A DNA stretch of 20,617 nucleotides, from the IMG/VR virus record IMGVR_UViG_3300044516_000950, positions 1 to 20,617 of that record. One strand, 5' to 3'. The notes beneath the pieces are model-generated. The model did no database searches. It had not been told where the DNA came from and saw only the letters and a list, made by a program, of their open reading frames with translations. Made by a program: the position numbers and the translations under genes. The stretch is from a virus. The first letter of the stretch is position 1, and each line of letters begins with the position of its first letter. Below, in pieces: positions 1-12,070 of this stretch.

Positions 1-858
1 AGTGGATTGCGTCACATATTAAATATGGGAGATGTTCAGCCAGAAGCTGCATCAAGGTTGCTGTTTAGCGCCAAGCCAAGCGAAGTTAAGTTGGTGTATG
101 ACAATCTTAGTCCAGAAGGTAGGCGCAACGCTCAGTATGCAATGCTTGAAAAGGCTTTGAGCGATTCTATTAATCAAACCACGCTAGAACCTAGCGCGAC
201 CTTGGTGGAAAAAAGACTTAATCAACTTAAGAAGGACTCTAACATCTTTTTTAAAAACACACTTCAAAGGGACGAAATTGAAGGGTTGACCCGCATGCTT
301 CGACTGACATCGCCTGCTGTAGAGTTGCAGGCAGATCCAAATACGGGCCAGCGTGCAGTTGCGCCTATGGCTGCTATAGCGGCATTAGCTGGTCAAGGCG
401 CAGTTAAAACAGTAGCCGGAGCAACACTACTGGATCGAGTTGCTAGTTTTTACGAGTCTCCACTTGCACGCAAAATCTTAAAAGCTATTCCTAAAACGCC
501 AAAAGATTCACCAGAAGAATTTGCGCTGACTAAACGATTCATAAATGCATTTGAGATTTACAATGATCAAAAGTCCGTTGAGCAGCTTGAAAAAAAGCGT
601 ATTGCAATGGCATTTTTGCCAGACAATACAACAAATGAACAAATGCCAAACGGTAGTTTCATTAAGGTAGACAACAGTCTTGGATACAAAATGATCAAGC
701 CAACAAACGGCAAAATTAGATTATTTGATAAGACTGGTTCACAAGTTCCTGGAATTTTTAACGATGAAGAAACGGCTATAAAAAAAGCCACGAATTTAAC
801 GTATCGCGAAGTCATCCAACAAATTCGAGCAAAGGAAAAAGCATATGCCTCTGAATAA
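1..858 (+). CDS. C-terminal part of a large phage (probably virion) protein, truncated by the window edge
   Basis: The frame is open from the first base, so the gene very likely begins to the left of the window; the TTG at 7 and the internal ATGs look like internal codons. About 285 residues are visible. They are helical and charged, with an Ala-rich stretch around residues 118-140 (MAAIAALAGQGAV) and a Lys/Glu-rich C-terminus. The opening (LLFSAKPSEVKLVYDNL, then SPEGRRNA) resembles C-terminal regions of very large internal-virion or polyvalent phage proteins; that is recognition by style, not a proven homology. The DNA is clearly more AT-rich than the genes from 1.0 to 3.5 kb. Its stop overlaps the next small gene by 14 nt. 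Lying before the early genes, it would suit the end of a late operon. Confidence 0.6.
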   Translation, partial: SGLRHILNMGDVQPEAASRLLFSAKPSEVKLVYDNLSPEGRRNAQYAMLEKALSDSINQTTLEPSATLVEKRLNQLKKDSNIFFKNTLQRDEIEGLTRMLRLTSPAVELQADPNTGQRAVAPMAAIAALAGQGAVKTVAGATLLDRVASFYESPLARKILKAIPKTPKDSPEEFALTKRFINAFEIYNDQKSVEQLEKKRIAMAFLPDNTTNEQMPNGSFIKVDNSLGYKMIKPTNGKIRLFDKTGSQVPGIFNDEETAIKKATNLTYREVIQQIRAKEKAYASE

Positions 859-997
859 ATCCGCATCCGACAAAGCCTTTACCGAAAACCTTCGGCGCGA
901 ACTTGGTGCCGGCAAGCCGCAGAAGCAGGCTGTGGCAATCGCTTATCGCGTACAAAAGGACGCCGCTCGCCAACAGGCTGCCCGCAAGCGCAAATAG
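845..997 (+). CDS. Small conserved phage protein (50 aa), PLNK...GKPQKQAVAIA type
   Basis: This 50-residue basic protein starts at the ATG at 845, inside the 3' end of the preceding gene, and stops at TAG 995-997. It has the pattern of a widespread tiny phage protein: MPLNKS at the start, then FTENLRRELGAGKPQKQAVA, then a Lys/Arg/Gln tail. The core 'GKPQKQAVAIA' is the recognisable part. No biochemical function is known to me. It is too small for an enzyme; a role as a DNA- or protein-binding accessory is only a guess. The GC content rises sharply at its start compared with the upstream gene. Confidence 0.75.
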   Translation: MPLNKSASDKAFTENLRRELGAGKPQKQAVAIAYRVQKDAARQQAARKRK

Positions 998-1002
998 CTC
1001 TC

Positions 1003-1755
1003 ATGGCCAACATCACACGGAAGTGGAAACGCTTCCTTGCAGTCTCATGCAGCCACGGCTACATGGCCGACCAGGCTGTACTCAAGGAAGTCCTCCGCTT
1101 TCGTGACCGATGGAAGCCGGACACGGTGCTGCATCTCGGTGATGCCATCGACATGACGTGCCTACGAACCGGGGCGCTGACTAACGACAACGCCGACTCA
1201 GCGGTCGATCCCGAGGCTGACCTGAACGACGGTCTCGCGTTCATCTCCGCGCTGCGTCCACAGCACTACCTGCTCGGCAACCATGAGGCCCGGCTGGTCA
1301 CACTGATGAGTCACCCGAAAGCAATCATCTCGGCTCTGGCGACCCGCGTCTATCACCAGATCCACGACCGGGCCAAGGCGATCAAGTGCAAGGTGTACGA
1401 CTACAAACTTAAAACTGGCTTCGTTGGGCTGGGTGACGCTCTGTTCCAGCACGGTTACCTGCACAGCGAGAACGCGCTTAGGGACAGCGCAGAGCGCATG
1501 TGCCACGGCAGGTACACCAAGCTTGTCATGGGGCATATTCACCGTGTACAAATCGCTGAAGGACGGCGCATTAAAGGTGTGACTGGCTACTCTGTTGGGT
1601 GGCTCGGAGATCCCGAAATGGCTGGCTATGCGGAGAATAGGATTGCAACCACCGCTTGGAGCAGAGGCTGGGCGTGGGGCGAATATACTGACAACGAGAC
1701 AATTGTATGGCTAACAAAAGAACTAAAAGACGGGACGTTCAAGCTCCCGCTGTAA
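1003..1755 (+). CDS. Calcineurin-like metallophosphoesterase
   Basis: A 250-residue protein with the ordered motifs of the binuclear metallophosphoesterase fold: SCSHG (15-19, with Ser where the first Asp of DxH is usual), HLGDAID (44-50, the GDxxD motif), LGNHEAR (91-97, GNHE), QHGYLH and GHIHR (GHxH). Such enzymes hydrolyse phosphomono- or phosphodiesters using two metal ions. Phage members are often found near replication genes, but their substrate is not known. The changed first motif (Ser for Asp) could alter metal binding. It starts 5 nt after the preceding gene, with no strong ribosome binding site visible. Its 3' end overlaps the next gene by 49 nt. Confidence 0.85.
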   Translation: MANITRKWKRFLAVSCSHGYMADQAVLKEVLRFRDRWKPDTVLHLGDAIDMTCLRTGALTNDNADSAVDPEADLNDGLAFISALRPQHYLLGNHEARLVTLMSHPKAIISALATRVYHQIHDRAKAIKCKVYDYKLKTGFVGLGDALFQHGYLHSENALRDSAERMCHGRYTKLVMGHIHRVQIAEGRRIKGVTGYSVGWLGDPEMAGYAENRIATTAWSRGWAWGEYTDNETIVWLTKELKDGTFKLPL

Positions 1756-1964
1756 AGGGAGATTGGCTCACGCAGCTTGCGGAGAATCTGGAGCTACAAC
1801 CAGCACCTCCTGGATGGTACACGTTAAGCCAAATCGCTCAACATCTGAAGATTGGAAGAACTGCCACAAAAAGAATTCTTCTTGAAAAGAAGGCTATGCG
1901 GCAGAAGTTCTACCATAAGACTCAAGACGGCAGAATCATTCCGACCATACACTACAAGCTATGA
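1707..1964 (+). CDS. Small basic protein with a helix-turn-helix-like core
   Basis: An 85-residue protein with a very basic N-terminus (MANKRTKRRD) and a central segment, GWYTLSQIAQHLKIGRTATK (about 37-56), that reads like a helix-turn-helix: 'TLSQIAQHLKIGRTATKRIL' has the spacing of a recognition helix. It is therefore probably a DNA-binding protein of the early region. The start at 1707 lies inside the phosphoesterase gene; no shorter in-frame ATG would keep the basic N-terminus, so the 49-nt overlap is accepted. The stop TGA overlaps the ATG of the next gene (ATGA). Confidence 0.65.
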   Translation: MANKRTKRRDVQAPAVKGDWLTQLAENLELQPAPPGWYTLSQIAQHLKIGRTATKRILLEKKAMRQKFYHKTQDGRIIPTIHYKL

Positions 1965-2245
1965 CGCCCGAGGAAAAGGAACGCCAAGCGATCATCCAAC
2001 GCGCAAAGGACATTCTCTCTGAACACTTTGAGTGCGGCGAAATCCTTGTCCAGGCGCAGGATGAGCTGGATAGCGACAACACAAACCGCTACGAGAGCGG
2101 CTGGGGGAATCGTTTTGCTCGAGACATGCACATTAACCTAATGCACAAGGAAAGAGTGCTGGAACACTCATGGATAGAAGAGTGTGGGGATGAAGAAGAT
2201 GACGAGGACGACGACGAGGACGACAAAATAAAATCAAAAAAGTAG
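1961..2245 (+). CDS. Small acidic-tailed phage protein, function unknown
   Basis: A 94-residue protein beginning at the ATGA overlap with the upstream gene. Residues 1-70 are a mixed helical region (MTPEEKERQAIIQRAKDIL). Residues from about 71 are an almost pure Asp/Glu run ending in a short basic KIKSKK tail. Acidic tails of this kind occur in DNA-mimic, inhibitor and scaffold proteins, but nothing here decides between them. Part of the N-terminal half (ESGWGNRFARDMHINLMHKE) looks folded. The repetitive GAY/GAR codons of the tail create Ser-rich false frames on the other strand. Confidence 0.65.
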   Translation: MTPEEKERQAIIQRAKDILSEHFECGEILVQAQDELDSDNTNRYESGWGNRFARDMHINLMHKERVLEHSWIEECGDEEDDEDDDEDDKIKSKK

Positions 2246-2248
2246 TTG

Positions 2249-2278
2249 CGTGCAGACAAGCAACGTGTAGCTTGCACG
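2249..2278 (+). promoter_or_regulatory. Hairpin in the leader of the SSB-like gene
   Basis: Bases 2249-2253 (CGTGC) pair with 2274-2278 (GCACG), and 2258-2261 (AAGC) with 2270-2273 (GCTT), leaving a 4-nt bulge and an 8-nt loop. The hairpin fills the 72-nt gap between the stop of the acidic protein and the ATG at 2318. It has no T-tract, so it is not a typical terminator. A translational control role for the following gene is possible but untested. Confidence 0.35.
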
Positions 2279-2317
2279 GCATTCGGTGAATGGTTCATCG
2301 ATGAAACCTTACAAAAA

Positions 2318-2959
2318 ATGAAAGTAGCACAAATTAGTGATTTGGCCAATTTGGCCGACGGTTCAGTGATTGGTGAGATGCGGGTGACGATCAAGGCGAC
2401 GTTCCCGCCCAAAACTGGTGAGGGCAAGTTTGGACCTTGGCGCGTGCAGAACGCGATCCTTCAGGATGCAACCGGCGAGTGCAGGGCATCGTTCTGGATG
2501 CCAGACGAGATCGGCGACCTCAAGGGTCAGATGGTGACGCTTCGTTCACAGGCTGGCAAGAAAGGTCTTCAGGGCATCAGCGTGAAGACATCCTCGCACT
2601 CTGGTGAGAACGAGCTGAAGATCACCGACCAGTGCGCAATCATCGACGATGCCGGCGCAGCCGTCGCAGCAGCCGGACCACGCAAGCCGGTGCTGGCTTC
2701 GTCGCCGATCTCGTTGACGGTGGCAGACGCCAAGCGTGCGCTCTTCCAGGCGGCACAGCTCATGGCTGAAGCCATTAAAGCCGCAGAGTGGGTTGGTGGA
2801 CAAGCCAACGTCACGCCAGAGCAGTTGCAGGCTATCGCTACGTCACTGTTCATTTCCGCAGACCGTGCGGGATTTGCCAAGGCATTCCCCTCAGCGCAGA
2901 CTAAGCCAGCGGTAAAGAAGGAAGAAATTGAACTTGAGGAGGACGATCTCAAATGGTAA
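2318..2959 (+). CDS. OB-fold single-stranded DNA-binding protein (SSB-like)
   Basis: A 213-residue protein if started at ATG 2318 (preceded by an A-rich ACAAAAA). The in-frame TTG at 2246 would add 24 unlikely residues encoded by a hairpin, so I prefer 2318. Residues about 15-75 have the OB-fold pattern of RPA/SSB-like domains: VIGEMRVTIKATFPP, a loop, then VQNAILQDATGECRASFW (the 'LxDxTGxxxAxxW' signature). The C-terminus is acidic and ends EIELEEDDLKW, like the interaction tip of SSB proteins that recruits partners. It most likely coats ssDNA during phage replication or recombination; neighbours are a resolvase-like nuclease and a helicase. Its stop overlaps the next ATG (ATGGTAA). Confidence 0.7.
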   Translation: MKVAQISDLANLADGSVIGEMRVTIKATFPPKTGEGKFGPWRVQNAILQDATGECRASFWMPDEIGDLKGQMVTLRSQAGKKGLQGISVKTSSHSGENELKITDQCAIIDDAGAAVAAAGPRKPVLASSPISLTVADAKRALFQAAQLMAEAIKAAEWVGGQANVTPEQLQAIATSLFISADRAGFAKAFPSAQTKPAVKKEEIELEEDDLKW

Positions 2960-3144
2960 AGGCCAAAGATATTGCTGCAATGGCAAACGTCTCGCTTCAG
3001 ACCGTGCTTAAGTGGGCGCGTGAAGGGAAAATCCCTCATCACAGGATCAGCTCCCGTTGCCTGCGGTTCTCAATGGAGGAAGTCAATTACTGGCTAAAGC
3101 TTAAGCGCGATGCCCAAAATAAACAGCCGAGCCAAGGGGTGTAG
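2953..3144 (+). CDS. Excisionase/MerR-like helix-turn-helix DNA-binding protein
   Basis: A 63-residue protein with a clear winged-helix HTH pattern of the excisionase (HTH_17) type: VKAKDIAAMANVSLQTVLKW (2-21), then AREGKIPHHRISSRCLRF and the helix FSMEEVNYWLKL. This family binds DNA as excisionase, repressor or recombination directionality factor. No integrase is seen in the window, so a regulatory role in the early operon is more likely here. It overlaps the SSB-like gene by 7 nt and the next gene by 35 nt, which suggests one coupled transcript. Confidence 0.8.
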   Translation: MVKAKDIAAMANVSLQTVLKWAREGKIPHHRISSRCLRFSMEEVNYWLKLKRDAQNKQPSQGV

Positions 3145-3466
3145 GGGCGAACGTCTCTGGCGTGACATGCTCAGGGAGGCTGGCTTCACCGCAAGGCGGG
3201 GCCAGCAATTCTCTGGGGGATCTGACAGTCCAGATGTTATCTGTGACGAGTTACGCAGCCTTCACATGGAGGTTAAGTTCGTTGAGTCCCTTAATCTTGA
3301 GAAAGCCTGTGAACAGGCTGATCGAGATCGCGGTGTCAAGCCATACATCGTTGCTCACAAAAAGAGTCGTTCTTGTTGGAAGGTGACGATGGATGCACAT
3401 TTCTTTTTTGCTTTACTGCGAGAAGGAATGGACGCTTGCAAATCAGAGTACCATCCTATTTTGTGA
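3110..3466 (+). CDS. PD-(D/E)XK nuclease, Holliday-junction-resolvase-like
   Basis: A 118-residue protein with the active-site layout of the archaeal Hjc/VRR-type PD-(D/E)XK fold: Glu14 in GERLW, Asp42 in SDSPDV, and Glu54-x-Lys56 in HMEVKFVE, preceded by the basic MPKINSRAKGCRGE. Such enzymes cut branched DNA (Holliday or Y junctions) before packaging or during recombination. Length and order of motifs are normal for the family. It sits in an operon with an SSB-like protein and the helicase. The exact substrate is inferred. It overlaps the upstream HTH gene by 35 nt. Confidence 0.75.
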   Translation: MPKINSRAKGCRGERLWRDMLREAGFTARRGQQFSGGSDSPDVICDELRSLHMEVKFVESLNLEKACEQADRDRGVKPYIVAHKKSRSCWKVTMDAHFFFALLREGMDACKSEYHPIL

Positions 3467-3596
3467 CACCTGCCCCGCTGGATACTCCGGCGAGCAAGGA
3501 CTGGGAGATCCGGTCGCTGAGTGGTGTGACGGCTGGAGAGACAGCGCAATTCTCGGACGCGAGATCGGGAACGCCGCCAAGGGTCAATGGGCGTGA
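3393..3596 (+). CDS. Possible small Cys-containing protein (start uncertain)
   Basis: A 67-residue frame overlapping the resolvase 3' end by 74 nt; a TTG shortly downstream at about 3408 is another possible start. The second half (residues 22-67) reads like a real protein, with CDTCPAGYSGEQG, a Cys in AEWCDGWRD and the ending GREIGNAAKGQWA. CxxC plus a further Cys could bind zinc. Its TGA lies inside a 22-nt direct repeat that also holds the stop of the next small gene. Competing frames here are low-quality. Confidence is moderate because the N-terminus is unclear. Confidence 0.45.
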   Translation: MHISFLLYCEKEWTLANQSTILFCDTCPAGYSGEQGLGDPVAEWCDGWRDSAILGREIGNAAKGQWA

Positions 3597-3612
3597 CACT
3601 GGGAGAGACTAG
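3591..3612 (+). repeat. Direct repeat, copy 1 of 2 (TGAYACTGGGRGAGACTAG core)
   Basis: A 22-nt segment that recurs at 3778-3799 with two mismatches. It contains the stop codon TGA of the upstream frame and lies 16 nt before the ATG at 3628. It could be a duplicated intergenic junction or a protein- or RNA-binding site. Confidence 0.7.
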
Positions 3613-3627
3613 GATAAATCTAAAATT

Positions 3628-3783
3628 ATGACCACACAACAAATTACAGACAACGTGCAGCGCAGAATGGCTTCATACAACAAGTTGTTGAGCCAAAAGG
3701 AAATTACAGAGTTTGAATATGTCGAGATGGCCTACCGCATGATCGACTACTGGATGAGTGTGATTCGCGATCGGATGGCGTGA
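3628..3783 (+). CDS. Small helical protein (51 aa), function unknown
   Basis: ATG 3628 to TGA 3781-3783 encodes 51 residues beginning MTTQQITDNVQRRMASYNKL and ending WMSVIRDRMA. It is charged, Met-rich and predicted helical, without Cys or membrane segments. The gene is enclosed by the two copies of a 22-nt direct repeat; the second copy includes its stop codon. The upstream sequence (GGATAAATCTAAAATT) is AT-rich with a weak GGA. I do not recognise the family. Confidence 0.55.
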   Translation: MTTQQITDNVQRRMASYNKLLSQKEITEFEYVEMAYRMIDYWMSVIRDRMA

Positions 3784-3799
3784 TACTGGGGGAGACTAG
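3778..3799 (+). repeat. Direct repeat, copy 2 of 2 (TGAYACTGGGRGAGACTAG core)
   Basis: The second copy of the 22-nt repeat at 3591-3612, 187 nt downstream, differing at two positions (C/T and A/G). It again overlaps a gene's stop codon and precedes the next gene's short leader (3800-3847), which contains nothing else I can name. Confidence 0.7.
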
Positions 3800-3847
3800 A
3801 CAGCTTCTGCACCATGCAGGGGCGCGACTGCACAACGCGCACATCTT

Positions 3848-4411
3848 ATGAACATCAGCATCAATATAACATACGTTAGCGGCACCAAAGTCGAACTGAT
3901 TGTCCCTCTTGAAGAGCCGTGTCAGATCGTCAGCCAGCCAGAGTCACCCGTGACACCTGAGCCGGTGCAGCCCGCGCAGGATTTGGCCGACGCGATGGCG
4001 GGACTGCCTGTGCTCACGGACGAAGAGCGCGAATTGCTCAAGCCGTCCGGCAGACGGTACACGTCCGTGCAAGACATGGTCGATGAACTTAAGCAAGACC
4101 CCGAGTCAGGCAAAACGATGAGCCTGTACGACATTACCTTCGTCACTCAAGACGGCAAAGAGTGGAAGGTGCCGCCCGGGCTTATGAAAGACTTTATCAC
4201 CATTTACGGTGAGAAGACCGTTGAGCAGGAACTATGGAAGGCACACGCTTGGATCGAGGCCGACGTCCACCGTCGCAAGACCGCCCGCGGTATGGGGCGC
4301 TACCTTAACGGCTGGCTCTCCCGTGCATCGTCGATGGTGCGTACACCGATCAAGACCCTGCTTAAGCGGGACAGCTTACTGACCACAAATGGAACCCAAG
4401 AAAGCTGGTAG
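3848..4411 (+). CDS. Replication-associated protein with W...RRxxRG...LxxWL tail
   Basis: A 187-residue protein. Residues 1-22 form a short beta-like segment, followed by a Pro/Glu-rich linker (SQPESPVTPEPVQPAQ). The C-terminal part, from LMKDFITIYGEKTVEQELWK onward with RRKTARGMGRYLNGWLSRA, matches the tail often seen at the end of phage replication initiators and helicase loaders. A related module occurs in the gene at 6188-6496. It lies directly upstream of the DnaB N-half and overlaps it by 23 nt, so a loader or replication-organiser role is reasonable but unproven. No ATP-binding motif is present, so it is not a DnaC-type ATPase. Confidence 0.6.
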   Translation: MNISINITYVSGTKVELIVPLEEPCQIVSQPESPVTPEPVQPAQDLADAMAGLPVLTDEERELLKPSGRRYTSVQDMVDELKQDPESGKTMSLYDITFVTQDGKEWKVPPGLMKDFITIYGEKTVEQELWKAHAWIEADVHRRKTARGMGRYLNGWLSRASSMVRTPIKTLLKRDSLLTTNGTQESW

Positions 4412-5102
4412 GCGCAAGCCGGTGGAGCTGCCGCCTGACACGGTAGTGCCGACTGCTACTGAGGCCGAGCGAGGCATAGCGTCGATTGCGCTGAACCACC
4501 CCGAGGTGTTCCTTCACCACATTAGCGAGAAGAACTTCAAGGTGGCGGATATCTTTGAGCCGCTGAGTCATCGAGTGTGCGAGATCATCTTGCAGCAGCA
4601 GAGCCGCAACGCTTCGTCAGAAATTCGTGTGGTTTTCGAGAAGGTACGCGAGACGTTGCCGACGACCCAGTTCCATGAACTCAGCGAACTCTACACGCTC
4701 ATGCCTATTGCCGGCGCGATTGGCGAGCTTATCGAGATCGTCAAGTCCACGGCTAAGCGGCGCACCTTGCAGCATGTCGCGCATGAAGTGCTCATGGCGA
4801 TTGGCGACTCGACTGTGCAGACGCCGGAACTGCTCAGTGATGTCGTGATGAAGGTGGAGGGCTTGTCCCGGGAGTTGGCACCGCCAAAGGTGATGGATAC
4901 GAAGGCGCTCCTGCTCAATGCGCTCAACCGCTACGAAACAGGCGACGACGAGTCGATGCGGATAAAGACTGGCTACTCTGCTATCGACAATATCTGCCCG
5001 ATCAGATACGGAGACTTCGTCGTCATCGGTGGAGAGACCAAGTCCGGCAAGACGATGCTCGCACTCAACATAATTGCAAACCTAATAAATGAAACTAATT
5101 AA
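4389..5102 (+). CDS. DnaB-type replicative helicase, N-terminal half (through Walker A)
   Basis: 237 residues: a DnaB N-terminal helical domain (about 22-120, EAERGIASIALNHPEVFLHH and onward), a linker helix (about 121-165), then the start of the RecA-like ATPase: IKTGYSAIDNI, FVVIGGETKSGKT (Walker A 214-222) and the following helix MLALNIIANLINETN, where it stops. DnaB proteins normally continue for about 200 residues; the missing Walker B, H3 and arginine-finger region is found as a separate gene at 7027-7611. Family function: ring helicase unwinding DNA at the fork. The stop TAA (5100-5102) lies inside the next gene, which starts 14 nt earlier. No intein N-fragment is attached. Confidence 0.9.
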   Translation: MEPKKAGRRKPVELPPDTVVPTATEAERGIASIALNHPEVFLHHISEKNFKVADIFEPLSHRVCEIILQQQSRNASSEIRVVFEKVRETLPTTQFHELSELYTLMPIAGAIGELIEIVKSTAKRRTLQHVAHEVLMAIGDSTVQTPELLSDVVMKVEGLSRELAPPKVMDTKALLLNALNRYETGDDESMRIKTGYSAIDNICPIRYGDFVVIGGETKSGKTMLALNIIANLINETN

Positions 5103-5400
5103 CTTAACTCCGCACGATATCACCATCACTGGTTACGGTATCGTGGAACCCAGCGGTCACTCCGTCAAAGTGCATAGTCACCTGTCCAAAGTTGGCGATG
5201 CCGACGGTGTCCCCATCATGTGCTGCAAGGAGTCGAAAGTGTCGAACCTGCCCGACCCGATGGACGGTATCCTGTACATTGTCCCGGCTTACGTCAGAAC
5301 GTCGTTGCCGCGGCGAACCGATTTGGCTAGTCCAACAAAACTCATCCGCGACGAATCCGGCAGAATTGTTGGGTGCGGGGCGCTTGAAATCAACCCATAA
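5089..5400 (+). CDS. Conserved phage protein of the 'MKLINLTPH' family
   Basis: 103 residues with the pattern of a small conserved phage family: start MKLINLTPHDITI, a beta-rich middle, 'DGILYIVPAYVRTSLPRRTD' and the ending LIRDESGRIVGCGALE. Function is unknown; the all-beta pattern suggests a small compact domain. It is the first of five genes lying between the two helicase halves. Its first codons overlap the last codons of the N-half, and because the family normally begins MxLINLTPH, the ATG at 5089 is well supported. This means the coding content of the insert starts right at the helicase break. No Shine-Dalgarno sequence is visible; expression may depend on translational coupling. Confidence 0.75.
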   Translation: MKLINLTPHDITITGYGIVEPSGHSVKVHSHLSKVGDADGVPIMCCKESKVSNLPDPMDGILYIVPAYVRTSLPRRTDLASPTKLIRDESGRIVGCGALEINP

Positions 5401-5411
5401 CAAACACAAAC

Positions 5412-6191
5412 ATGAAAAACGAAATACACTACAACTGGGAAATGACAAAGTATCGGGCGACACCGGGCTTGTCTAAGCACAGCCTGGACGCATTTGCAGT
5501 CTGCCCGTCGTACTACAAATGGAAGGAGAGTCAGGAGTGGAAGCCGTCCCGCGAGATGGAACTTGGCACACTCGTCCACAGCTTGGCGCTGGAGGGGCGC
5601 TGTGACTACGCTATCGCTCCAGCGTGCGACCGACGCACGAAGGAAGGCAAGCTGACATGGGAGAACTTCTGCCAGGCTAACATCGGTAAGGTTATCCTCA
5701 ACGAGGACGAAGGGGCGCGTGTAGAGGGTGCCTGCGCTGCCGTGGAACCGCTGCTTGAGATGGTCACCGCCAACAAGGTGATCGAGGCGTCCATGTTCTG
5801 GGAGCGTGACGGTGTGCAGTGCAAGGGACGCCCCGACATGATAAGCGAGATCAAGGGCAGGCCAGCAATCGTGGACCTCAAGACAACCAGCGACTGGTCT
5901 AAGTTCGACCACAAGTTCTTTGGCTTTGGCTACGACAAGCAAGCCGCTTGGTACACCTACGGTCTAGAGCAGATCACCGGCCAAGAGGACATTGACTTCT
6001 ACTTCTTGGTTGTGGACATGCAAGCGCCCCATCTCAGTCAGTGGGTGAAGGCGTCGAGCGAACTCATCGACATTGCTAACCAGCAGCTCGACGTGACACT
6101 GTCGCAGTACAAGCTGTGCCTCGATCAAGATGTGTGGCCCGGTCCACCAACGATGCGCGTGATGCTGCCGCGTAGATGGGAGGAAGCATGA
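5412..6191 (+). CDS. RecE/exonuclease VIII-like PD-(D/E)XK nuclease
   Basis: 259 residues with hallmarks of the phage RecE-like exonuclease family: GLSKHSLDAFAVCPSYYKW near the N-terminus, LGTLVHSLALEG (His56 and Glu61 region), GRPDM (139-143, catalytic Asp142), IVDLKTT (Asp155-x-Lys157), and a C-terminal motif around YDKQAAWYTYGLE. Such enzymes chew 5' ends to give 3' ssDNA for annealing. The four Cys of Cas4 or AddB are absent. No RecT/Erf annealing protein is seen here. A start at ATG 5442 (MTKYRATPG) is also possible; 5412 is preceded only by an A-rich leader. It is the second gene between the helicase halves and overlaps the next by ATGA. Confidence 0.85.
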   Translation: MKNEIHYNWEMTKYRATPGLSKHSLDAFAVCPSYYKWKESQEWKPSREMELGTLVHSLALEGRCDYAIAPACDRRTKEGKLTWENFCQANIGKVILNEDEGARVEGACAAVEPLLEMVTANKVIEASMFWERDGVQCKGRPDMISEIKGRPAIVDLKTTSDWSKFDHKFFGFGYDKQAAWYTYGLEQITGQEDIDFYFLVVDMQAPHLSQWVKASSELIDIANQQLDVTLSQYKLCLDQDVWPGPPTMRVMLPRRWEEA

Positions 6192-6496
6192 GCGACGAAC
6201 TAAGTGACGCAACATTGCGAGATCAGATTTACGGGATGACGTTTTTAATGACTGACGGATGCACTCGCTGCCCAAAAGACATTCTTGATCTTGCCATCAA
6301 CAGGTACGGAGAAGAGGCTGTTTACAAAGAGATGCTGAAGGCAAAAAAGTGGTTGCTTTCACATGCAGCAAGACACAAGAAACGTAGAGTTTCTGGAATT
6401 GGATTGTTTTTGCTAAACTGGTTTGAAAGTGCCGCCTTCTTTCGTTTGCGCGACGCAGAACAAAAGAAAAACTCATACAACAGATGGGAGGACTAA
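6188..6496 (+). CDS. Small protein related to the tail of the 3848-4411 product
   Basis: 102 residues, started at ATG 6188 because a strong ribosome binding site (GGGAGGAAGC) precedes it and it forms an ATGA overlap with the exonuclease gene. The core, LAINRYGEEAVYKEMLKAKK followed by W, RHKKRRVSGIG and LLNWFE, aligns with the C-terminal tail of the gene upstream of the helicase (YGE..V..E..KA..W, then basic residues, G.G..L..W). It lacks that protein's N-terminal part. The DNA is more AT-rich than its neighbours. It is probably a replication accessory, with a duplicated or shared domain; the exact job is unknown. Third gene within the helicase gap. Confidence 0.65.
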   Translation: MSDELSDATLRDQIYGMTFLMTDGCTRCPKDILDLAINRYGEEAVYKEMLKAKKWLLSHAARHKKRRVSGIGLFLLNWFESAAFFRLRDAEQKKNSYNRWED

Positions 6497-6497
6497 T

Positions 6498-6791
6498 ATG
6501 AGCGACGATGAGATTAATGCGGCTATGGCTGACGCGATGGGCTGGCGCAAGGAAGATGGCGTCTATGTGTGGACGGCCAACGGCATAGACTGTACCTGCG
6601 ACGAATTGTGGGACTGGGTGAATGATCTCAACGCCATGCATTTGGCGGAGAAGTCGCTGAACATGCAGCAGTGGAGGATCTACCTGATGCATCTAGCCAC
6701 CTTCATGCAAGACATCTGCCATGCTACCGCAAAAGAAAAGGCGAAGGCGTATCTGAAAACGCTCGGTAAATGGAAGGAGGCGCAACCATGA
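6498..6791 (+). CDS. Phage ABA-sandwich domain protein (paralogue A)
   Basis: 97 residues from ATG 6498, chosen because GGGAGGA lies just upstream and the family begins MSDDEIN/MTDEQIN. Recognisable segments are MSDDEINAAMADAMGWR, DLNAMHLAEKSL, and TAKEKAKAYLKTLGKWKEA at the C-terminus, the usual layout of this abundant small phage family whose function is unknown. A paralogue lies at 7971-8312. Fourth gene in the helicase gap; it overlaps the next gene by ATGA. Cys residues in the middle (CTCDE) are not arranged as an obvious zinc site. Confidence 0.8.
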   Translation: MSDDEINAAMADAMGWRKEDGVYVWTANGIDCTCDELWDWVNDLNAMHLAEKSLNMQQWRIYLMHLATFMQDICHATAKEKAKAYLKTLGKWKEAQP

Positions 6792-7030
6792 GCGACTGGG
6801 TACTCATACGCCGTACAAACGTGCTGCAAGACGTGGAGCTGCCGCGCCCCAAGCGCACGCAGGACATCGTCTGCATCGGGCCGAAAGACGCGCTCGGCTC
6901 CAAGATGGAGCAGCTCATGCTACTGCCGGAGAATCAATCGACGGATCTGATCGAGGTGAAGTATGTGCTGGAACCGTACACCGGGCAGCACTCGCATACC
7001 TCGGCAAGACCGATGAATGGACTTAGATGA
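6788..7030 (+). CDS. Small phage protein, function unknown (80 aa)
   Basis: 80 residues starting at ATG 6788, preceded by a clear GGAGG (GGAAGGAGGCGCAACC) and in ATGA overlap with the ABA-sandwich gene. The sequence (MSDWVLIRRTNVLQDVELPR, then CIGPKDALGSKMEQL) has no motif I can name. The last residues (SARPMNGLR) are encoded up to 7027-7030, where its TGA overlaps the ATG of the helicase C-half (ATGA). It is the last of the five genes between the helicase halves and the one that could couple translation into the C-half, which has no good ribosome binding site of its own. Confidence 0.65.
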   Translation: MSDWVLIRRTNVLQDVELPRPKRTQDIVCIGPKDALGSKMEQLMLLPENQSTDLIEVKYVLEPYTGQHSHTSARPMNGLR

Positions 7031-7611
7031 ACAAAGGAATCCTCGTCATCTCGCTTGAGATGCCTGCGAACCAGATCATCGACCGGCTTGTCGCCCGGCT
7101 AGGCAGCGTCAGCCTGCGTACCCTCGCCGAGGGAGCCAAGCTGGAGCGCGACATCAGAGGTGTCCACAGTGCCATCCAGAAGCTCAATGCGAGCCGTTTG
7201 GTGGTGCGGGACGACCTGTACGACATCGCCAACATCTGCGCCACGGCACGGGCAATGGCGAAGTCCCCGGATGGGTTGGGTGTCCTGTTTGTCGATTACA
7301 TCCAGCTTGTACGGTGCGACCTCGGGAAAGACTCAAGCCGCGAGCGTGAGGTGGCCGAGGTCAGCCGGAGTTTGCGCCTGCTTGGCATCGAATTAGGTTG
7401 CCTTGTGATCAGCATTACGCAACTAAATGAGCAGGGCAAAGCTCGTGAAAGTCGTGCAATCGGGCAAGACGCTACAGCCGTGATGGTTGTGAAGCTCTCT
7501 GACGAGGCCGAGTTTCGCGAGATTAGCATACCCATCCAACGCAATGGGCCGTGTGGCGTCAGCGCCAACCTGCGCTTCCACGGCAAGACTGCAACATTCC
7601 ACAATGAATAA
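7027..7611 (+). CDS. DnaB-type replicative helicase, C-terminal half (Walker B to arginine finger)
   Basis: 194 residues that begin exactly where the N-half ends: NKGILVISLEMP (motif 1a; DnaB 'LIFSLEMP'), then VLFVDYIQL (Walker B, 86-94), VISITQLNEQ (H3 region, 127-136), the 'IGQDATAVMV' segment and IPIQRNGPCGVSANLRFHG with the conserved R-N-G-P-G arginine-finger region (171-177). All core elements after Walker A are present and uninterrupted, so this does not look like a decaying pseudogene. Together the halves give 431 residues, near a normal DnaB. The ATG overlaps the upstream stop. Most likely it pairs non-covalently with the N-half to form a working ATPase site. Confidence 0.9.
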   Translation: MNKGILVISLEMPANQIIDRLVARLGSVSLRTLAEGAKLERDIRGVHSAIQKLNASRLVVRDDLYDIANICATARAMAKSPDGLGVLFVDYIQLVRCDLGKDSSREREVAEVSRSLRLLGIELGCLVISITQLNEQGKARESRAIGQDATAVMVVKLSDEAEFREISIPIQRNGPCGVSANLRFHGKTATFHNE

Positions 7612-7819
7612 ACACTACCAAAGTTACATGAAACTAGAACCTGACAACTCCAACAAAGCAGTCCCATACCTGTGGGGCTTTGCTACCCTCGCTGTCTTTG
7701 ATGGTCTGGCCATCGCTTACTTCGCTGAAGAGCTATGGGAGGCCATTGTATTGCTCGTCCTGTTTTGGGCTAGTGCAGCGTTTGCGGTATCGGCAATGCA
7801 AGAATGGAGGGGCAAATGA
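7604..7819 (+). CDS. Small membrane protein with two predicted transmembrane helices
   Basis: 71 residues from ATG 7604, which overlaps the helicase stop by 8 nt (ATG 7628 is an alternative start). After a polar N-terminus there are two hydrophobic stretches, YLWGFATLAVFDGLAIAYF and AIVLLVLFWASAAFAVSAM, separated by an acidic turn (EELWE). It could be an inner-membrane accessory or superinfection protein; a holin is possible by size but there is no lysis gene nearby. The stop overlaps the next ATG (ATGA). Confidence 0.6.
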   Translation: MNKHYQSYMKLEPDNSNKAVPYLWGFATLAVFDGLAIAYFAEELWEAIVLLVLFWASAAFAVSAMQEWRGK

Positions 7820-7974
7820 CACCAACAAAAAAACAGATTGAGAGTGTGATTGCTGATATTGAGAGAATCTCAAACGATCTTCGCAACCAGGAGATCAAAC
7901 TTGCGGACATCTCTCGCATCTTGATGGGTTTGCGAATAGCGAAAGAATATCTTGAACGGGAGTTGGAGCCATGA
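7816..7974 (+). CDS. Small coiled-coil protein (52 aa)
   Basis: ATG 7816 to TGA 7972-7974, with ATGA overlaps at both ends and a GGAGG about 8 nt before the start. The 52 residues (MTPTKKQIESVIADIERISN and onward) have regular hydrophobic positions typical of a short helical hairpin or coiled coil, ending KEYLERELEP. No family is recognised. Its sequence is AT-richer than the helicase genes. Confidence 0.65.
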   Translation: MTPTKKQIESVIADIERISNDLRNQEIKLADISRILMGLRIAKEYLERELEP

Positions 7975-8312
7975 CCGACGAGCAAATCAATCAGGCTATT
8001 GCGGAAGTCTGCGGGTGGCGTGACTTTGCGATTGAAGGCGGATCTGGCTTTTACAAGGGATTCGACAACGGCGCAGAGTTGCGTCCAGACCTGCCGGATT
8101 ACGTTAACGACCTCAACGCGATGCATGACGCTGAACAGCACTTGTGGCGTAAAGATTACTACATGCGGTACGATTACATCGACGAGCTTGGGAAACTACA
8201 AAATCCACACAACTGGCAACGCATGGAAGCGAGCGACATATTAGACGTTACAGCTCGCGAACGCGCAGAGGCGTTTCTAAAGACGATAGGTAAATGGGAG
8301 GAGGCGAAATGA
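7971..8312 (+). CDS. Phage ABA-sandwich domain protein (paralogue B)
   Basis: 113 residues with the same family marks as the gene at 6498: MTDEQINQAIAEVCGWRDF at the start, YVNDLNAMHDAEQHL in the middle and TARERAEAFLKTIGKWEEA at the end. It is longer than paralogue A, through insertions around residues 22-45 and 66-85. The family is small, abundant in phages and of unknown function. The start is fixed by the ATGA overlap with the upstream gene and by the conserved first residues. Its stop overlaps the next gene in the same way. Confidence 0.85.
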   Translation: MTDEQINQAIAEVCGWRDFAIEGGSGFYKGFDNGAELRPDLPDYVNDLNAMHDAEQHLWRKDYYMRYDYIDELGKLQNPHNWQRMEASDILDVTARERAEAFLKTIGKWEEAK

Positions 8313-8461
8313 TCAGCACAGGCTACCCTGGTGATAGCGACCCGCTGGCAGAACTGCCCACATGCCCCGAGTGTGGCATCTGGCTCACGCAAGACTTGTT
8401 TGATGACTGGATCTGCGAAGACTGCGACGCTAAAGAGAACAAGAATGAAGAACCCACCTAA
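8309..8461 (+). CDS. Small zinc-ribbon-like protein (50 aa)
   Basis: ATG 8309 (ATGA overlap; GGGAGGAGG upstream) to TAA 8459-8461. The 50 residues contain CPEC (19-22) and CEDC (36-39), the two knuckles of a zinc ribbon, with an acidic spacer. The tail is Lys/Asn/Glu-rich. Such ribbons in phages may bind DNA, RNA or RNA polymerase; no specific role can be assigned. The last codons overlap the next gene. Confidence 0.7.
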   Translation: MISTGYPGDSDPLAELPTCPECGIWLTQDLFDDWICEDCDAKENKNEEPT

Positions 8462-8531
8462 AATTCAGGTTGCTATTGCCGTGCTGAGCATCATAGCTTT
8501 GGCGCTGAGCTTAATACTCGACAGAGAATGA
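8445..8531 (+). CDS. Very short single-span membrane peptide (28 aa)
   Basis: ATG 8445 to TGA 8529-8531 gives 28 residues: a basic MKNPPK start, one hydrophobic helix (VAIAVLSIIALALSLIL) and the end DRE. It overlaps the zinc-ribbon gene by 17 nt and the next gene by ATGA, so it is embedded in the coupled gene chain. The function is unknown. The positive-inside pattern suggests an N-terminus in the cytoplasm. Confidence 0.5.
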   Translation: MKNPPKIQVAIAVLSIIALALSLILDRE

Positions 8532-8779
8532 GTGCTCAACTAATCGACAACCTCATGGAGAAGATCCATGTGTTAACACAAGAAAACAAACGACTAAAAG
8601 ATGAGAACAAGACAAAGACAGAGACAATCGAACGGCTGGGTAGCCAAATTGCGGAAGGTAGATCCACGGGACTGGAAGTCACGGATCATGGAGTTGCCCG
8701 TGAGAATGCAGGTGTTTGTGGCGCAGATTGTGTGGTGGGATTACTTTGCGGACAAGACGGTGCCGGACCGGTGGCCTGA
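8528..8779 (+). CDS. Coiled-coil N-terminus with a doubtful C-terminal frame
   Basis: 83 residues starting at an ATGA overlap. Residues 1-44 form a convincing coiled coil (MSAQLIDNLMEKIHVLTQEN, then basic repeats ending RLGSQIAEG). After that the translation becomes Gly/Val/Cys-rich (GLEVTDHGVARENAGVCG) and looks like an out-of-frame reading of the next gene, which overlaps it in the +1 frame. Either two genes overlap extensively or a frameshift near 8650 split a single gene. The second view would give a coiled coil followed by the DWKSRIMELPV domain. Confidence 0.45.
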   Translation: MSAQLIDNLMEKIHVLTQENKRLKDENKTKTETIERLGSQIAEGRSTGLEVTDHGVARENAGVCGADCVVGLLCGQDGAGPVA

Positions 8780-8942
8780 CCTAGACATGTGGCTCCGCGC
8801 ACATCCTTTCACTTTCCGCAAGGAAGTGTGGCCTTCAGACGAGGAGATGGTTGATGCGCTCATTGGCATCGGTTACGAGCCCCGAACTGCGTTACGTCGC
8901 ATGGGGATTAGCCAGAACAACAAGTGGCACAAGTACAACTAA
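8688..8942 (+). CDS. Conserved phage protein, 'QVFVAQIVWWDYFAD' type
   Basis: 84 residues from ATG 8688, with a modest GGAAG upstream. The frame is open further up and residues VDPRDWKSRI before the ATG look coding, so the true start may be earlier (TTG near 8655, ATG 8601, or fusion with the 8528 frame). Distinctive segments are RMQVFVAQIVWWDYFADK, WPDLDMWLRAHP and VDALIGIGYEPRTALRRMGI; the end KWHKYN is basic. The Trp-rich helical pattern looks like a folded domain. Function unknown. The stop overlaps the next ATG (TAATG). Confidence 0.65.
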   Translation: MELPVRMQVFVAQIVWWDYFADKTVPDRWPDLDMWLRAHPFTFRKEVWPSDEEMVDALIGIGYEPRTALRRMGISQNNKWHKYN

Positions 8943-9136
8943 TGGACGCGCAAAACGAACTACTCATGTACAAGCACGTCTTGGCCCAGGCTGCATCCGC
9001 TATCGAGCAGCTCAAGCACTGCCTGCTACGGCACTACGACGCTCACTCGGCGTTTGCCAACGACCGGGCTGCACTACTCGACGCTGACCTTGTGCTGGCG
9101 CAGGCGTATAAGCTGACACAGAAGGAGGACAAATGA
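8942..9136 (+). CDS. Small helical protein (64 aa)
   Basis: Started at ATG 8942 because of the TAATG overlap with the preceding stop. The 64 residues (MDAQNELLMYKHVLAQAASA, ... LLDADLVLAQAYKLTQKEDK) are amphipathic and alpha-helical, likely a coiled coil or helical hairpin. No family is recognised. The sequence before the next gene (GAAGGAGGACAAATG) provides that gene's ribosome binding site. Confidence 0.65.
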   Translation: MDAQNELLMYKHVLAQAASAIEQLKHCLLRHYDAHSAFANDRAALLDADLVLAQAYKLTQKEDK

Positions 9137-9462
9137 CCACAAACGCACTTATAGAAAATCTTAAATCATTAAACCCAGAAGGGCCGCTTACAAAATCCTT
9201 GGTGTCTTTAGCTGCTCTAAGGCTAGATGAGTTGCAACAACTAAACAAAAACCTAGAGTGTTCATGTGATTCTTGGGAAGATGAAGTAATCAAGTTGCGC
9301 AAAGAACTTGAAGAAACCCGCCCAGAACCGTCTCGGCTTGAGATTGCGGCGATGGCAATGCAGGGTTTGCTTGTAAGCTCAGAATATCCCAAATCAACAA
9401 TTGTGACAGATGCTGTATGGTGCGCTGACAAGTTAATCGCAGCAGTAAAGGAGGCGAAATGA
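9133..9462 (+). CDS. Phage protein with 'LEIAAMAMQGLL...ADKLIAA' domain
   Basis: 109 residues in two parts: an N-terminal helical or coiled-coil region (1-62, ELQQLNKNLECSCDSWEDEV and onward) and a C-terminal module, LEIAAMAMQGLLVSSEY...DAVWCADKLIAAVKEA. The latter is a common small phage module of unknown function, often next to ABA-sandwich or similar genes. The gene is AT-richer than its neighbours. It starts in an ATGA overlap behind a GGAGG and ends the same way. Confidence 0.7.
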   Translation: MTTNALIENLKSLNPEGPLTKSLVSLAALRLDELQQLNKNLECSCDSWEDEVIKLRKELEETRPEPSRLEIAAMAMQGLLVSSEYPKSTIVTDAVWCADKLIAAVKEAK

Positions 9463-9596
9463 CCGACAAAACAAAATACATCATCGTTGTTATTTTGTTC
9501 CCATTCCTTGCTTATGCGGGATTCAAGTGGCGGATTGCAGAGATCCGCTACTTTGCTGGAACATGTAATTGCACACACACTTGCACACAGAAATGA
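9459..9596 (+). CDS. Small single-span membrane protein with Cys-rich tail (45 aa)
   Basis: ATG 9459 (GGAGG upstream, ATGA overlap) to TGA 9594-9596. The 45 residues consist of MTDKTK, a hydrophobic helix (YIIVVILFPFLAYAGF) and a polar tail containing CNCTHTC, a compact Cys cluster. The tail could bind metal or form disulphides if exported. Function is unknown. The stop overlaps the dNMP kinase start. Confidence 0.6.
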   Translation: MTDKTKYIIVVILFPFLAYAGFKWRIAEIRYFAGTCNCTHTCTQK

Positions 9597-10075
9597 TCCT
9601 CCGCACCAAGATCATCGGCTTCACCGGGCTATCCGGCTCAGGCAAAAGCTACGCAGCTTCAATCGTCAAGGAGTGTTATCCTGCGTATCGACTGTTCTCG
9701 TTTGCACACGAAATCAAGCGGCTTGCTGGCTGCTACATGGGTTGGGATGGCAACAAAGACGAGCGTGGGCGCAAGCTCCTGCAAGACCTAGGCATGGCAG
9801 GCCGGGCGTATGATCCGCAGTTGTGGGTAGGCTTCATGCCGCCCGACAGACTACTCGTCATCGACGACGTACGCTTCCTCAACGAAGCTGCGGCTATCCG
9901 CGAGCATGGCGGGATCGTCATCCGAGTCAGGCGATTCGGCGTAGACCCTATGAATCATGTGTCCGAGACGGAGCAAGAGCGGATCAGCCCGGACTTCACG
10001 CTGGTTAATGATGGCAGCGAGACGTTTAAGCACATCCTGCTACACGAGCTAAAGAAATATGGCAGCAATGAATAA
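9593..10075 (+). CDS. Deoxynucleoside monophosphate kinase
   Basis: 160 residues from ATG 9593 (ATGA overlap). Walker A is GLSGSGKS (12-19) near the N-terminus after beta-strand TKIIGFT. Later come FSFAHEIKRLAG, the substrate-side region LLQDLGMAGRAYDPQLWVGF, VIDDVRFLNEAAAIREHGG (the 'DDVRFxNE' motif of phage dNMP kinases) and VIRVRR with a later H.SE.E region. These enzymes phosphorylate dNMPs to dNDPs and supply precursors for phage DNA synthesis. The length is normal to slightly short. It sits in the coupled early operon and overlaps the next gene by 17 nt. Confidence 0.85.
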   Translation: MILRTKIIGFTGLSGSGKSYAASIVKECYPAYRLFSFAHEIKRLAGCYMGWDGNKDERGRKLLQDLGMAGRAYDPQLWVGFMPPDRLLVIDDVRFLNEAAAIREHGGIVIRVRRFGVDPMNHVSETEQERISPDFTLVNDGSETFKHILLHELKKYGSNE

Positions 10076-10361
10076 GCGTCAATTGTGGATACGCCGGGTC
10101 GAAGCTCGCAGTGGGATTGCGCCGCTCGATTTCAAGATGGCGCGGTACATCGAGTTAATGAACATCAGCAACATGCAAGACTTGCGCTGGTCGTTCACGA
10201 CACCGGGCAACGTGCGCGGGATTGGCGCTGGCACGCTGAACAAGCTGAAGGGGCTGGCCGGCATCGAGGTGCCACCCAAGCGGGTGACATGGAAGCGCGA
10301 GGCGTTACGGCTGTATGCGCTGCTTGAGCAACATGGTATAGAGTACGTTAAACAAAAATGA
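10059..10361 (+). CDS. Small protein with helix-hairpin-helix-like motif
   Basis: 100 residues if started at ATG 10059, or 97 from ATG 10068. The central segment TTPGNVRGIGAGTLNKLKGL (about 47-66) resembles a helix-hairpin-helix (hydrophobic-x-GIGxxTLxKL), a non-specific DNA-binding element. The flanks are basic helices (NKRQLWIRRVEARSG; KRVTWKREALRLYALLEQHG). It follows the dNMP kinase in the same transcript. A DNA-binding role is inferred from the motif only. Confidence 0.65.
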   Translation: MAAMNKRQLWIRRVEARSGIAPLDFKMARYIELMNISNMQDLRWSFTTPGNVRGIGAGTLNKLKGLAGIEVPPKRVTWKREALRLYALLEQHGIEYVKQK

Positions 10362-10597
10362 TTATGACAAAAACATATGACCAAATGACTGACGCAGAAA
10401 AGTATCACCATGAACTTCCACAGTATCGGCAAAAACTTATAGTTGCTGGCATTGAACGTGATGACGTTCTTCGGCTTGTTTGTAGAGCATTCAATATGCT
10501 TACTGAATTAATTGAAAGGCCAGAACTTGCAAATGATCCAGAGTGGAAAGTTGAGTATAAATTTTTAGATGAGGCAATAGATAAGTGGCTTAAGTAA
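10358..10597 (+). CDS. Small acidic helical protein (79 aa), AT-rich gene
   Basis: Starts with an ATGA overlap (10358; a second ATG two codons later is possible). The 79 residues (MTKTYDQMTDAEKYHHELPQ, ... WKVEYKFLDEAIDKWLK) are charged and helical, without known motifs. The gene is clearly more AT-rich than the two before it, suggesting a different origin within the mosaic. The stop is separated from the next start by a single base. Confidence 0.65.
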   Translation: MIMTKTYDQMTDAEKYHHELPQYRQKLIVAGIERDDVLRLVCRAFNMLTELIERPELANDPEWKVEYKFLDEAIDKWLK

Positions 10598-10598
10598 C

Positions 10599-10847
10599 AT
10601 GAACACACCAGAACACACCATTGCCGCAGAGATCCTTCTGCTTCAGGCTGAGGAGGAGATTTCAAAACTGAAAAATGAAATTCAAATTTTGAAAAAGGAG
10701 CGGGAAATTGAGGCTGACATTCAGCTCAAGATTGCGCTCAAGGCTGACAAGTACTACATGCAACTACAGGCCATCAAGGAGTCTGCCTTCGGTGATATCA
10801 CCGGGATCACGGCAGAAGACCTGTCGTTTATGAGCGAACGAGAATGA
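10599..10847 (+). CDS. Small coiled-coil protein (82 aa)
   Basis: ATG 10599; the codons after it contain a perfect 10-bp tandem repeat (GAACACACCA, 10601-10620). Residues 10-45 form a Leu/Glu/Lys-rich coiled coil (LLLQAEEEISKLKNEIQILK). The part around 10660-10700 is built from TTCAAA/TTCAAATTTTGAAA sequence related to the AT-rich repeats further on, and it encodes 'ISKLKNEIQILKK'. The C-terminus is AFGDITGITAEDLSFMSE. Function unknown. The stop overlaps the next ATG. Confidence 0.65.
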   Translation: MNTPEHTIAAEILLLQAEEEISKLKNEIQILKKEREIEADIQLKIALKADKYYMQLQAIKESAFGDITGITAEDLSFMSERE

Positions 10848-11428
10848 GCGAGACACCCAAACGCAAGAAACGCAACGCCGTGTACCGCTCGCCTGAGAGC
10901 CGTGCGCGGCAGCTTGCTGGGTTGAGCGGGGTGAAGCTGGAGAAGCATGTGCCGGGTGTGATCATGGAGAAGGTTAACGGTCAAGGGGCGCTTGCCGGCA
11001 TTCCGCCCGAGATCCAAAAGAAGGTGCTCGACTTGTTCGTCACAGGCCAACACAGCCGGGCCATTGCGATGCAGTTGGGGATCAGCGAGCGGAGTGTGGA
11101 CGAGATCAAGGTATCGGCGCTGGACATGGATAGCCAGTTCAGGAATGCGTACTTCAATACGAATCTGAAGGCCAAGCTACAGTCGGTGATCGATGGCGCT
11201 GCCCAGCGGGTCATGGAGCTTATGCCGGAGATGTCCGCGAAGGATGCTGTGCTGGCACTGGGGATCACGTTGGACAAGTATGCTAATCTGGAGAAGAACA
11301 AGGTGCCGGATCAGCTGCACCAGCATGTGCATCTGCACACGAACAACGACATCTCTGCCGCTTTCATGGCGGCCCTTAAGCCGCCGAAAGCACAAGACGA
11401 TCATGTTGGAACGATTGAAAACGAGTGA
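10844..11428 (+). CDS. HTH DNA-binding protein, candidate small terminase subunit
   Basis: 194 residues: a basic N-terminus (KRKKRNAVYRSPESRARQLA), a homeodomain-like HTH (about 60-90: KVLDLFVTGQHSRAIAMQLG, ISERSVDEIK), a helical oligomerisation segment (about 105-155, AAQRVMELMPEMSAKDAVLA, LGITLDKYANLE) and a His-rich stretch (LHQHVHLHTNN). This layout resembles small terminase subunits and related phage regulators that recognise packaging sites. The large subunit lies 4.3 kb downstream beyond a minus-strand block. A regulatory protein is the main alternative. The start is set by ATGA overlap. It overlaps the next gene by 26 nt. Confidence 0.55.
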   Translation: MSETPKRKKRNAVYRSPESRARQLAGLSGVKLEKHVPGVIMEKVNGQGALAGIPPEIQKKVLDLFVTGQHSRAIAMQLGISERSVDEIKVSALDMDSQFRNAYFNTNLKAKLQSVIDGAAQRVMELMPEMSAKDAVLALGITLDKYANLEKNKVPDQLHQHVHLHTNNDISAAFMAALKPPKAQDDHVGTIENE

Positions 11429-11687
11429 CGCCCTTGCAAGGTTGGGATGGAAAAAGGCGACTTCAATTCCAAATTTGCAGGCTGATTCTGGAATTCAAAT
11501 TTCAAATTCAAATTTCAAAATTGAAAATCAAATTTCAAAACTGGTTTCACAAGAGCAGGCTGACCTAGCCAACGAGGTTCTCGACCTGCGCGACCTGACC
11601 GAACGGTATTGGCGCGTGATCCAGGCGCAACATGTGCGCATCGCACGATTGGAGAGCGAATTATGTGCGAGGAATGTGCCGCGCTAG
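11403..11687 (+). CDS. Small coiled-coil protein containing a repeat-encoded segment
   Basis: 94 residues from ATG 11403 (overlapping the candidate small terminase by 26 nt). The middle, residues about 31-46 (IQISNSNFKIENQISK), is encoded by the AT-rich repeat at 11490-11541, identical over 21 nt to the intergenic repeat at 12586-12606. The rest is helical: EQADLANEVLDLRDLTERYW and RIARLESEL. The repeat therefore appears to have expanded or inserted in frame. Function unknown. Confidence 0.6.
   Translation: MLERLKTSDALARLGWKKATSIPNLQADSGIQISNSNFKIENQISKLVSQEQADLANEVLDLRDLTERYWRVIQAQHVRIARLESELCARNVPR
11490..11541 (+). repeat. AT-rich TTCAAATTTCAAATT repeat inside a gene
   Basis: A run of TTCAAATT / TTTCAAAA units; bases 11499-11519 are identical to 12586-12606 in the same orientation. 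Related AT-rich runs are at 10660-10700, 12046-12070, 12238-12290 and 12640-12668. This copy is in frame with the surrounding gene. Confidence 0.8.
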
Positions 11688-11845
11688 AAGAGGAAGCGGA
11701 GTTCTACGCGGAGGAAGCCGCGAAGTGGCGGGCCATGTACGCGCTGGCGCACAAGCGTGAGGTCACGCTGGCGCAGAGGCTCCGGGTGCTGATCCAGAGC
11801 TTGCGCCAGGTTGCTAGCGAGGTGCGCGGAATGGGCGCGAATTAA
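11663..11845 (+). CDS. Small Cys/Glu-rich helical protein (60 aa)
   Basis: Started at ATG 11663 because GGAGAG lies 6 nt upstream. The 60 residues begin MCEECAALEEEAEFYAEEAA and continue as a basic helix (KREVTLAQRLRVLIQSLRQ). CEEC could bind metal, but with only one pair this is uncertain. It is the last plus-strand gene before the minus-strand block; its TAA (11843-11845) overlaps the stop of the convergent gene in the sequence TTAA. Confidence 0.6.
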   Translation: MCEECAALEEEAEFYAEEAAKWRAMYALAHKREVTLAQRLRVLIQSLRQVASEVRGMGAN

Positions 11846-12045: not shown

Positions 12046-12070
12046 TTTTAGGATTTCAATTTGAATTTAA
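12046..12070 (-). promoter_or_regulatory. AT-rich repeat leader before the 12045 gene
   Basis: On the minus strand this reads TTAAATTCAAATTGAAATCC and then TAAAA up to the ATG. It resembles the AT-rich repeats of 11.5 and 12.6 kb and sits directly against the start codon. No GGAGG is present. A promoter or translation-enhancer role is inferred from position only. Confidence 0.4.

Follow-up and report, generated by a model that had tools for sequence, protein, structure and literature searches.

A DnaB-type helicase divided within its motor domain between two genes in a family of uncultured aquatic phages

The window, i.e. the whole stretch of 20,617 nucleotides analysed here (IMG/VR record IMGVR_UViG_3300044516_000950, positions 1 to 20,617), carries two genes that correspond to successive portions of a DnaB-type helicase, separated by five other genes. 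The features of this locus are as follows:

4389..5102, plus strand: DnaB N-half gene, 237 aa, with the DnaB N-domain, the linker, the first strand of the RecA core and Walker A
5028..5054, plus strand: GGETKSGKT, the Walker A motif (N-half residues 214-222)
5055..5099, plus strand: tail of the N-half, 15 residues past Walker A; variable end and site of the break
5089..5400, plus strand: intervening gene 1, 103 aa, phrog_30542; its start overlaps the N-half stop
5412..6191, plus strand: intervening gene 2, 259 aa, exonuclease VIII/RecE-like PD-(D/E)XK nuclease (phrog_412, E 4.9e-57; PF12684, E 5.2e-23)
6176..6496, plus strand: intervening gene 3, 106 aa, missing from many relatives
6498..6791, plus strand: intervening gene 4, 97 aa, with paralogues nearby
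6788..7030, plus strand: intervening gene 5, 80 aa; its stop overlaps the start codon of the C-half
7027..7611, plus strand: DnaB C-half gene, 194 aa, with motif 1a, Walker B, H3, the DNA-binding loops and the arginine finger
7276..7296, plus strand: GVLFVDY, the Walker B strand, which includes Asp90 of the C-half
7540..7542, plus strand: Arg172 of the C-half, at the arginine-finger position in the QRNGPCG motif

A check of the open reading frames showed that the original prediction had placed both helicase genes correctly, in coordinates as well as in frame, and that the N-half gene indeed stops exactly 15 residues past the Thr of GGETKSGKT. The C-half gene starts at 7027 with an ATG that follows immediately on an in-frame TAG, and its product begins MNKGILVISLEMP. 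The PHROG DnaB family phrog_19 matches the N-half over profile positions 154-377 (E 3.9e-16) and the C-half over positions 381-580 (E 5.2e-35); likewise, on the DnaB structure 2r6a the profile of the N-half covers residues 11-227 and that of the C-half residues 233-435. The pieces are thus adjacent, with few loop residues between them. Pfam DnaB_N alone matches the N-half at no better than E 0.026, and PF03796 matches the C-half at E 4.8e-31 (positions 49-255 of the 255-position model). Foldseek searches with structural models of the halves returned E. coli DnaB (7t20) as the best match of the N-half, which also matches the DnaB N-terminal domain 2r5u with a TMt of ~0.8, and V. cholerae DnaB (8a3v; E 1.4e-13, TM 0.83) for the C-half. 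The N-half therefore contains a DnaB N-terminal domain by phrog_19, 2r6a and Foldseek alike, and the motif content predicted for the C-half (motif 1a, Walker B, H3 and the arginine finger) is borne out by profile and structure alignments, in which Arg172 falls on the QRNGP of DnaB structures. Only both genes together provide a complete RecA core, from Walker A through Walker B and H3 to the arginine finger. Taken jointly, the profile, structure and Foldseek matches identify the halves as one DnaB once over, broken in the loop past the P-loop helix and encoded not as a single polypeptide but by two ORFs that lie 1.9 kb apart, which confirms that the fracture is real.

With respect to the break itself, the original prediction held that the joined halves reproduce the distance from the P-loop to SLEM of E. 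coli DnaB exactly (25 residues). Counted from GKT to SLEM, the two polypeptides of the window sum to 23 residues (15 + 8), while the E. coli-type spacing, deduced from the 2r6a alignments of both halves, is 21; the window is thus off by two, the earlier count having omitted the Asn that ends the N-half and the initiator Met of the C-half. Among 66 pairs of related halves the commonest sum is 21 (38 pairs), the range is 19-24, and one clade has 45. N-tails extend mostly 11-17 residues past GKT, with a maximum of 37, and C-heads comprise ~8 residues before SLEM. The tails vary freely between lineages in length and sequence, their ends being e.g. INETN, INE, LL, IA, NEPS and TQC, and in one clade STSPHIVSTSTEKPLSQQDMSLA. 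The start of the C-half is an ATG in each of the 66 pairs, always at the corresponding position, and in 15 of them a stop codon stands directly upstream. The variable tails together with the uniform start have the look of two free chain ends and are unlike a splice junction.

Scanning of IMG/VR with each half yielded ~80 loci per half, and in all loci that contain both halves these are split. At least 66 distinct N/C sequence pairs, drawn from many metagenomes, share this break, which extends down to a diverged lineage reached with another query (loci L271-L273; 43-45% identity for N, ~67% for C). The 23 near-complete relatives (37-44 kb) all possess exactly two complementary matches to the DnaB_C model, the N piece covering positions ~2-48 (in a few cases up to 60) and the C piece ~46-255, and none of the 23 has an intact DnaB_C gene. 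Scans for an intact sister gene, run with the C-half of the window, with an alignment of 10 members and with two diverged members, retrieved nothing but split relatives as far down as 64% identity, followed by a drop to intact DnaB at 35% or less; in the collections searched, no intact relative exceeds 36% identity to the C-half. In phage C75C1, which among named phages is closest in its portal protein, DnaB is intact and only 29% identical to the C-half. A scan of bacterial genomes revealed one contig with the split, L217 (JAFMIZ010000069.1), in a metagenome-assembled genome of Pedosphaera (Verrucomicrobiota; isolate DEBay_Sum019D), a bin that gives a faint hint at the host.

Positions 1-3402 and 3128-20617 of the window overlap another IMG/VR contig, IMGVR_UViG_3300042510_000830 (42,763 bp), to which they are practically identical. 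This contig is classed as linear in IMG/VR and closes on itself through a 275-bp end repeat with 4 mismatches; owing to these imperfect repeats, a circularly complete genome (42.5 kb) for the phage of the window seems to be available. It contains no second helicase-like P-loop protein; its plausible P-loop proteins besides the N-half are only a dNMP kinase and the terminase. The many split relatives and the lack of a second helicase in these genomes exclude for practical purposes both an assembly error and a second intact helicase, which the original prediction had named among the circumstances able to overturn it (the latter together with a lack of activity). The split is fixed across a deep phage clade, which shows that it is stable and no passing accident. 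Uncultured aquatic phages that form a large family encode their sole replicative helicase in two genes, cut inside the motor domain.

Analysis of the genes between the halves reveals a conserved core with variable additions, in a gap of 1.3-3.8 kb. The exonuclease gene is found there in every lineage mapped, gene 1 in nearly all of them, including the deepest (L271/L273, 57-59% identity), and the 80-aa gene 5 in most. The variable genes encode cytosine methylases, an HNH_3 endonuclease, ThyX and dNMP kinase. The site between gene 5 and the C-half accommodates a variable cassette with C-5 cytosine methylase genes in many close relatives (e.g. L024:6382-8032 and L009:5365-6780, also L004, L014, L021 and others), once with an HNH_3 gene alongside. 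The ORF at 6498-6791, between the halves, and that at 7971-8312, just behind them, are paralogous (~38% identical), with further copies in relatives. In agreement with the original prediction, Pfam and PHROG profile matches identify none of the five genes of the window as a homing endonuclease, and the deepest lineage mapped has none at the break either; the HNH_3 gene was found between the halves in one relative lineage only, 1.2 kb from the start of the C-half. The exonuclease cassette already lay between the halves in the ancestor that the lineages seen have in common, and the simplest account of the origin of the split would be that a block of ordinary phage genes was inserted or rearranged.

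The two complementary ORFs, which cover the whole enzyme once, are both under purifying selection: the median dN/dS for 66 distinct pairs is 0.053 for the N-half and 0.040 for the C-half, in line with the earlier impression that both are well conserved. Within the N-half, the P-loop fragment has a pN/pS of 0.028, compared with 0.105 for the N-domain and linker, and a column identity of 0.82 compared with 0.57 and 0.49 elsewhere. The severed strand and helix of the P-loop (~45 residues) are thus the most constrained part of the N-half, a pattern to be expected only if they still form part of an ATPase. In 26 diverse N-halves the GG and K218-S219-G220-K221-T222 of Walker A are invariant, and so are, in 26 diverse C-halves, the Walker B Asp90, the Gln of H3 and the arginine finger Arg172. 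The Lys that stands two positions ahead of the arginine finger in E. coli-type DnaB (KQRNGP) is replaced in the split family by a hydrophobic residue (I/Y/F-QRNGP), so catalysis may differ in detail.

Four other explanations have to be considered against the reading in which two separately translated proteins act together. That the locus is an assembly chimera or a decaying pseudogene has practically no probability: gene fragments are common in metagenome contigs, but here dozens of independent metagenome assemblies and deeply diverged lineages share the arrangement, with a dN/dS of ~0.05. An intron spliced in cis or in trans, whose exons would meet between ...ANLI and GILV, would rejoin the halves in RNA and account for two adjacent pieces with matching ends, and read-through into it could generate the variable N-tails. 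Yet no Rfam intron was matched, either in the whole window at the gathering threshold or in the region 4300-7700 at an E-value of 5, the C-half retains its ATG in 66 of 66 pairs (with an in-frame stop just ahead of it in 15), the N-half stop overlaps the next gene, and the gap consists of conserved protein genes in variable number and of variable length. We therefore regard the intron, which the original prediction had raised as a way in which it could fail, as extremely unlikely.

Slightly less improbable, but still very unlikely, is that the halves have no role as a helicase, the N-half binding or hijacking the DnaB or primase of the host and the C-half being the remnant of a DNA-binding ATPase. 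The host has its own DnaB, and distinct genes could have different expression levels; on the other hand, neither half contains a complete ATPase core, the invariant motifs are distributed over both (Walker A on N; Walker B, H3 and the arginine finger on C), the P-loop fragment is the best preserved portion of the N-half, and the genes are found together in 23 of 23 near-complete relatives. The remaining alternative concerns the origin and is compatible with non-covalent assembly: an ancestral split intein or homing endonuclease may have fractured the gene and been lost later. Fractured phage helicases with split inteins are known (gp41-1, in the account given by PMC10882715), and some close relatives have HNH_3 and cytosine-methylase genes in the gap, upstream of the C-half. 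Nevertheless, none of the 66 pairs has conserved splice-site residues or an intein remnant in the N-tail or C-head, the HNH gene was found in a single lineage and lies 1.2 kb from the C-half start, and the core genes (gene 1 and the exonuclease) occupy the gap even in the deepest lineage, so this scenario seems unlikely. As to the present proteins, intein models matched neither half, which together with the tail lengths and the lack of splice-site residues upholds the claim that the fractured helicase has no split intein.

With no intein or intron to rejoin the halves, the two proteins most likely snap together into the motor. Very probably, the halves are translated as separate polypeptides that bind each other non-covalently and make up one DnaB subunit. 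A phage gene for a DnaB-type replicative helicase would have undergone an ancient fission in the loop past the P-loop helix, with Walker A on one side of the cut and motif 1a on the other, and each half would be translated separately from a polycistronic message. The N-protein would contribute the DnaB N-domain, the linker and the strand, loop and helix of Walker A, and the C-protein the remaining RecA core with Walker B, H3, the DNA loops and the arginine finger; the chains would associate without a peptide bond into one helicase subunit, six such pairs presumably forming a ring. The sequences show that the halves are complementary, conserved and under selection, and that neither an intact copy nor intein or intron sequence accompanies them; we infer the association of the halves, the hexamer and the helicase activity from sequence conservation. 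The interpretation of the original prediction, a fracture without splicing, is thus supported, and on this reading the halves would assemble into an active helicase. In AlphaFold models of the isolated chains, the N-domain of the N-half is confident (pLDDT 82-92) and its P-loop segment is below pLDDT 50, and the C-half is confident for residues 1-130 and not for 133-194, although the low values of isolated segments may partly stem from the shallow alignment (26 sequences). The low-confidence segments in these models suggest that each half seems to need its partner. The strand order of the ASCE fold is 5-1-4-3-2; the strand missing from the C-half would be the central one, located on the N-half, so each half should need the other.

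In comparison with single-chain DnaB proteins of SF4 (E. coli, V. cholerae and Geobacillus 2r6a), the split family has the same domains, order, motifs and lengths and, from the summed halves, the same GKT-to-SLEM spacing, but it is encoded by two genes broken within the RecA core, lacks the Lys before the arginine finger and has a shorter loop between H3 and the RES motif. To our knowledge, no natural ring helicase has Walker A and Walker B on separate chains. For a motor ATPase, having these two motifs on unlinked chains is a drastic separation. The precedents for assembly without splicing that the original prediction had invoked hold: the split NrdA of Aeh1 is functional without splicing and the T4 topoisomerase gp39/gp60 is consistent with it; moreover, the parts of the 43A/43B DNA polymerase of phage 25 co-purify and are active (PMC2988022). 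In Aeh1 NrdA, T4 gp39/gp60 and 43A/43B (phages 25 and 44RR), as here, one enzyme is made of two translated parts with no intein or intron; however, their breaks hold a homing endonuclease or a short untranslated spacer and are confined, as far as described, to one or a few phages (PMC2988022), whereas the break in DnaB harbours several ordinary genes (1.3-3.8 kb), extends over a deep clade and cuts the ATPase site of a ring motor. The split inteins gp41-1 and gp41-8 come from a fractured phage gp41 DNA helicase gene (Dassa et al. 2009, as cited in PMC10882715); in that type, going by this citation, a phage replicative helicase is likewise in two, whereas the halves in the window carry no split intein and their gap no homing endonuclease. 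Enzymes with genes in pieces and helicases fractured by split inteins are thus known; no DnaB that is cut between Walker A and Walker B, unspliced, and fixed in a deep clade, and no other split DnaB or ring helicase without an intein, turned up in the open-licence papers searched.

A natural split helicase could be used for studies of ring assembly and for two-component control, and gene callers or helicase surveys that expect an intact DnaB would miss the replisome of a common aquatic phage group or take its parts for fragments. There is also some, rather small, chance that the replication fork of these phages is run by a ring helicase whose ATP sites each combine two gene products (Walker A from one, Walker B from the other) and that the split is useful in itself; if so, P-loop subunits might, for example, join C-subunits on the DNA to build the ring with no need of a separate loader, or the amount and timing of the helicase might be set by two genes.

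Elsewhere in the window, the gene for the terminase large subunit (15713-17827) has its Walker A interrupted by a continuous mini-intein of 132 aa (15986-16381) without an endonuclease, with the junctions GGNR|CLAGETEI...ITHHN|SGKTEY. As relatives with 90-96% identical terminases are uninterrupted there (GGNRSGKT), this intein is a recent insertion. A gene-product-88-like protein (PF17338) is encoded at 13094-13699 on the minus strand, which is unusual, beside sparsely coding DNA at ~12000-14600.
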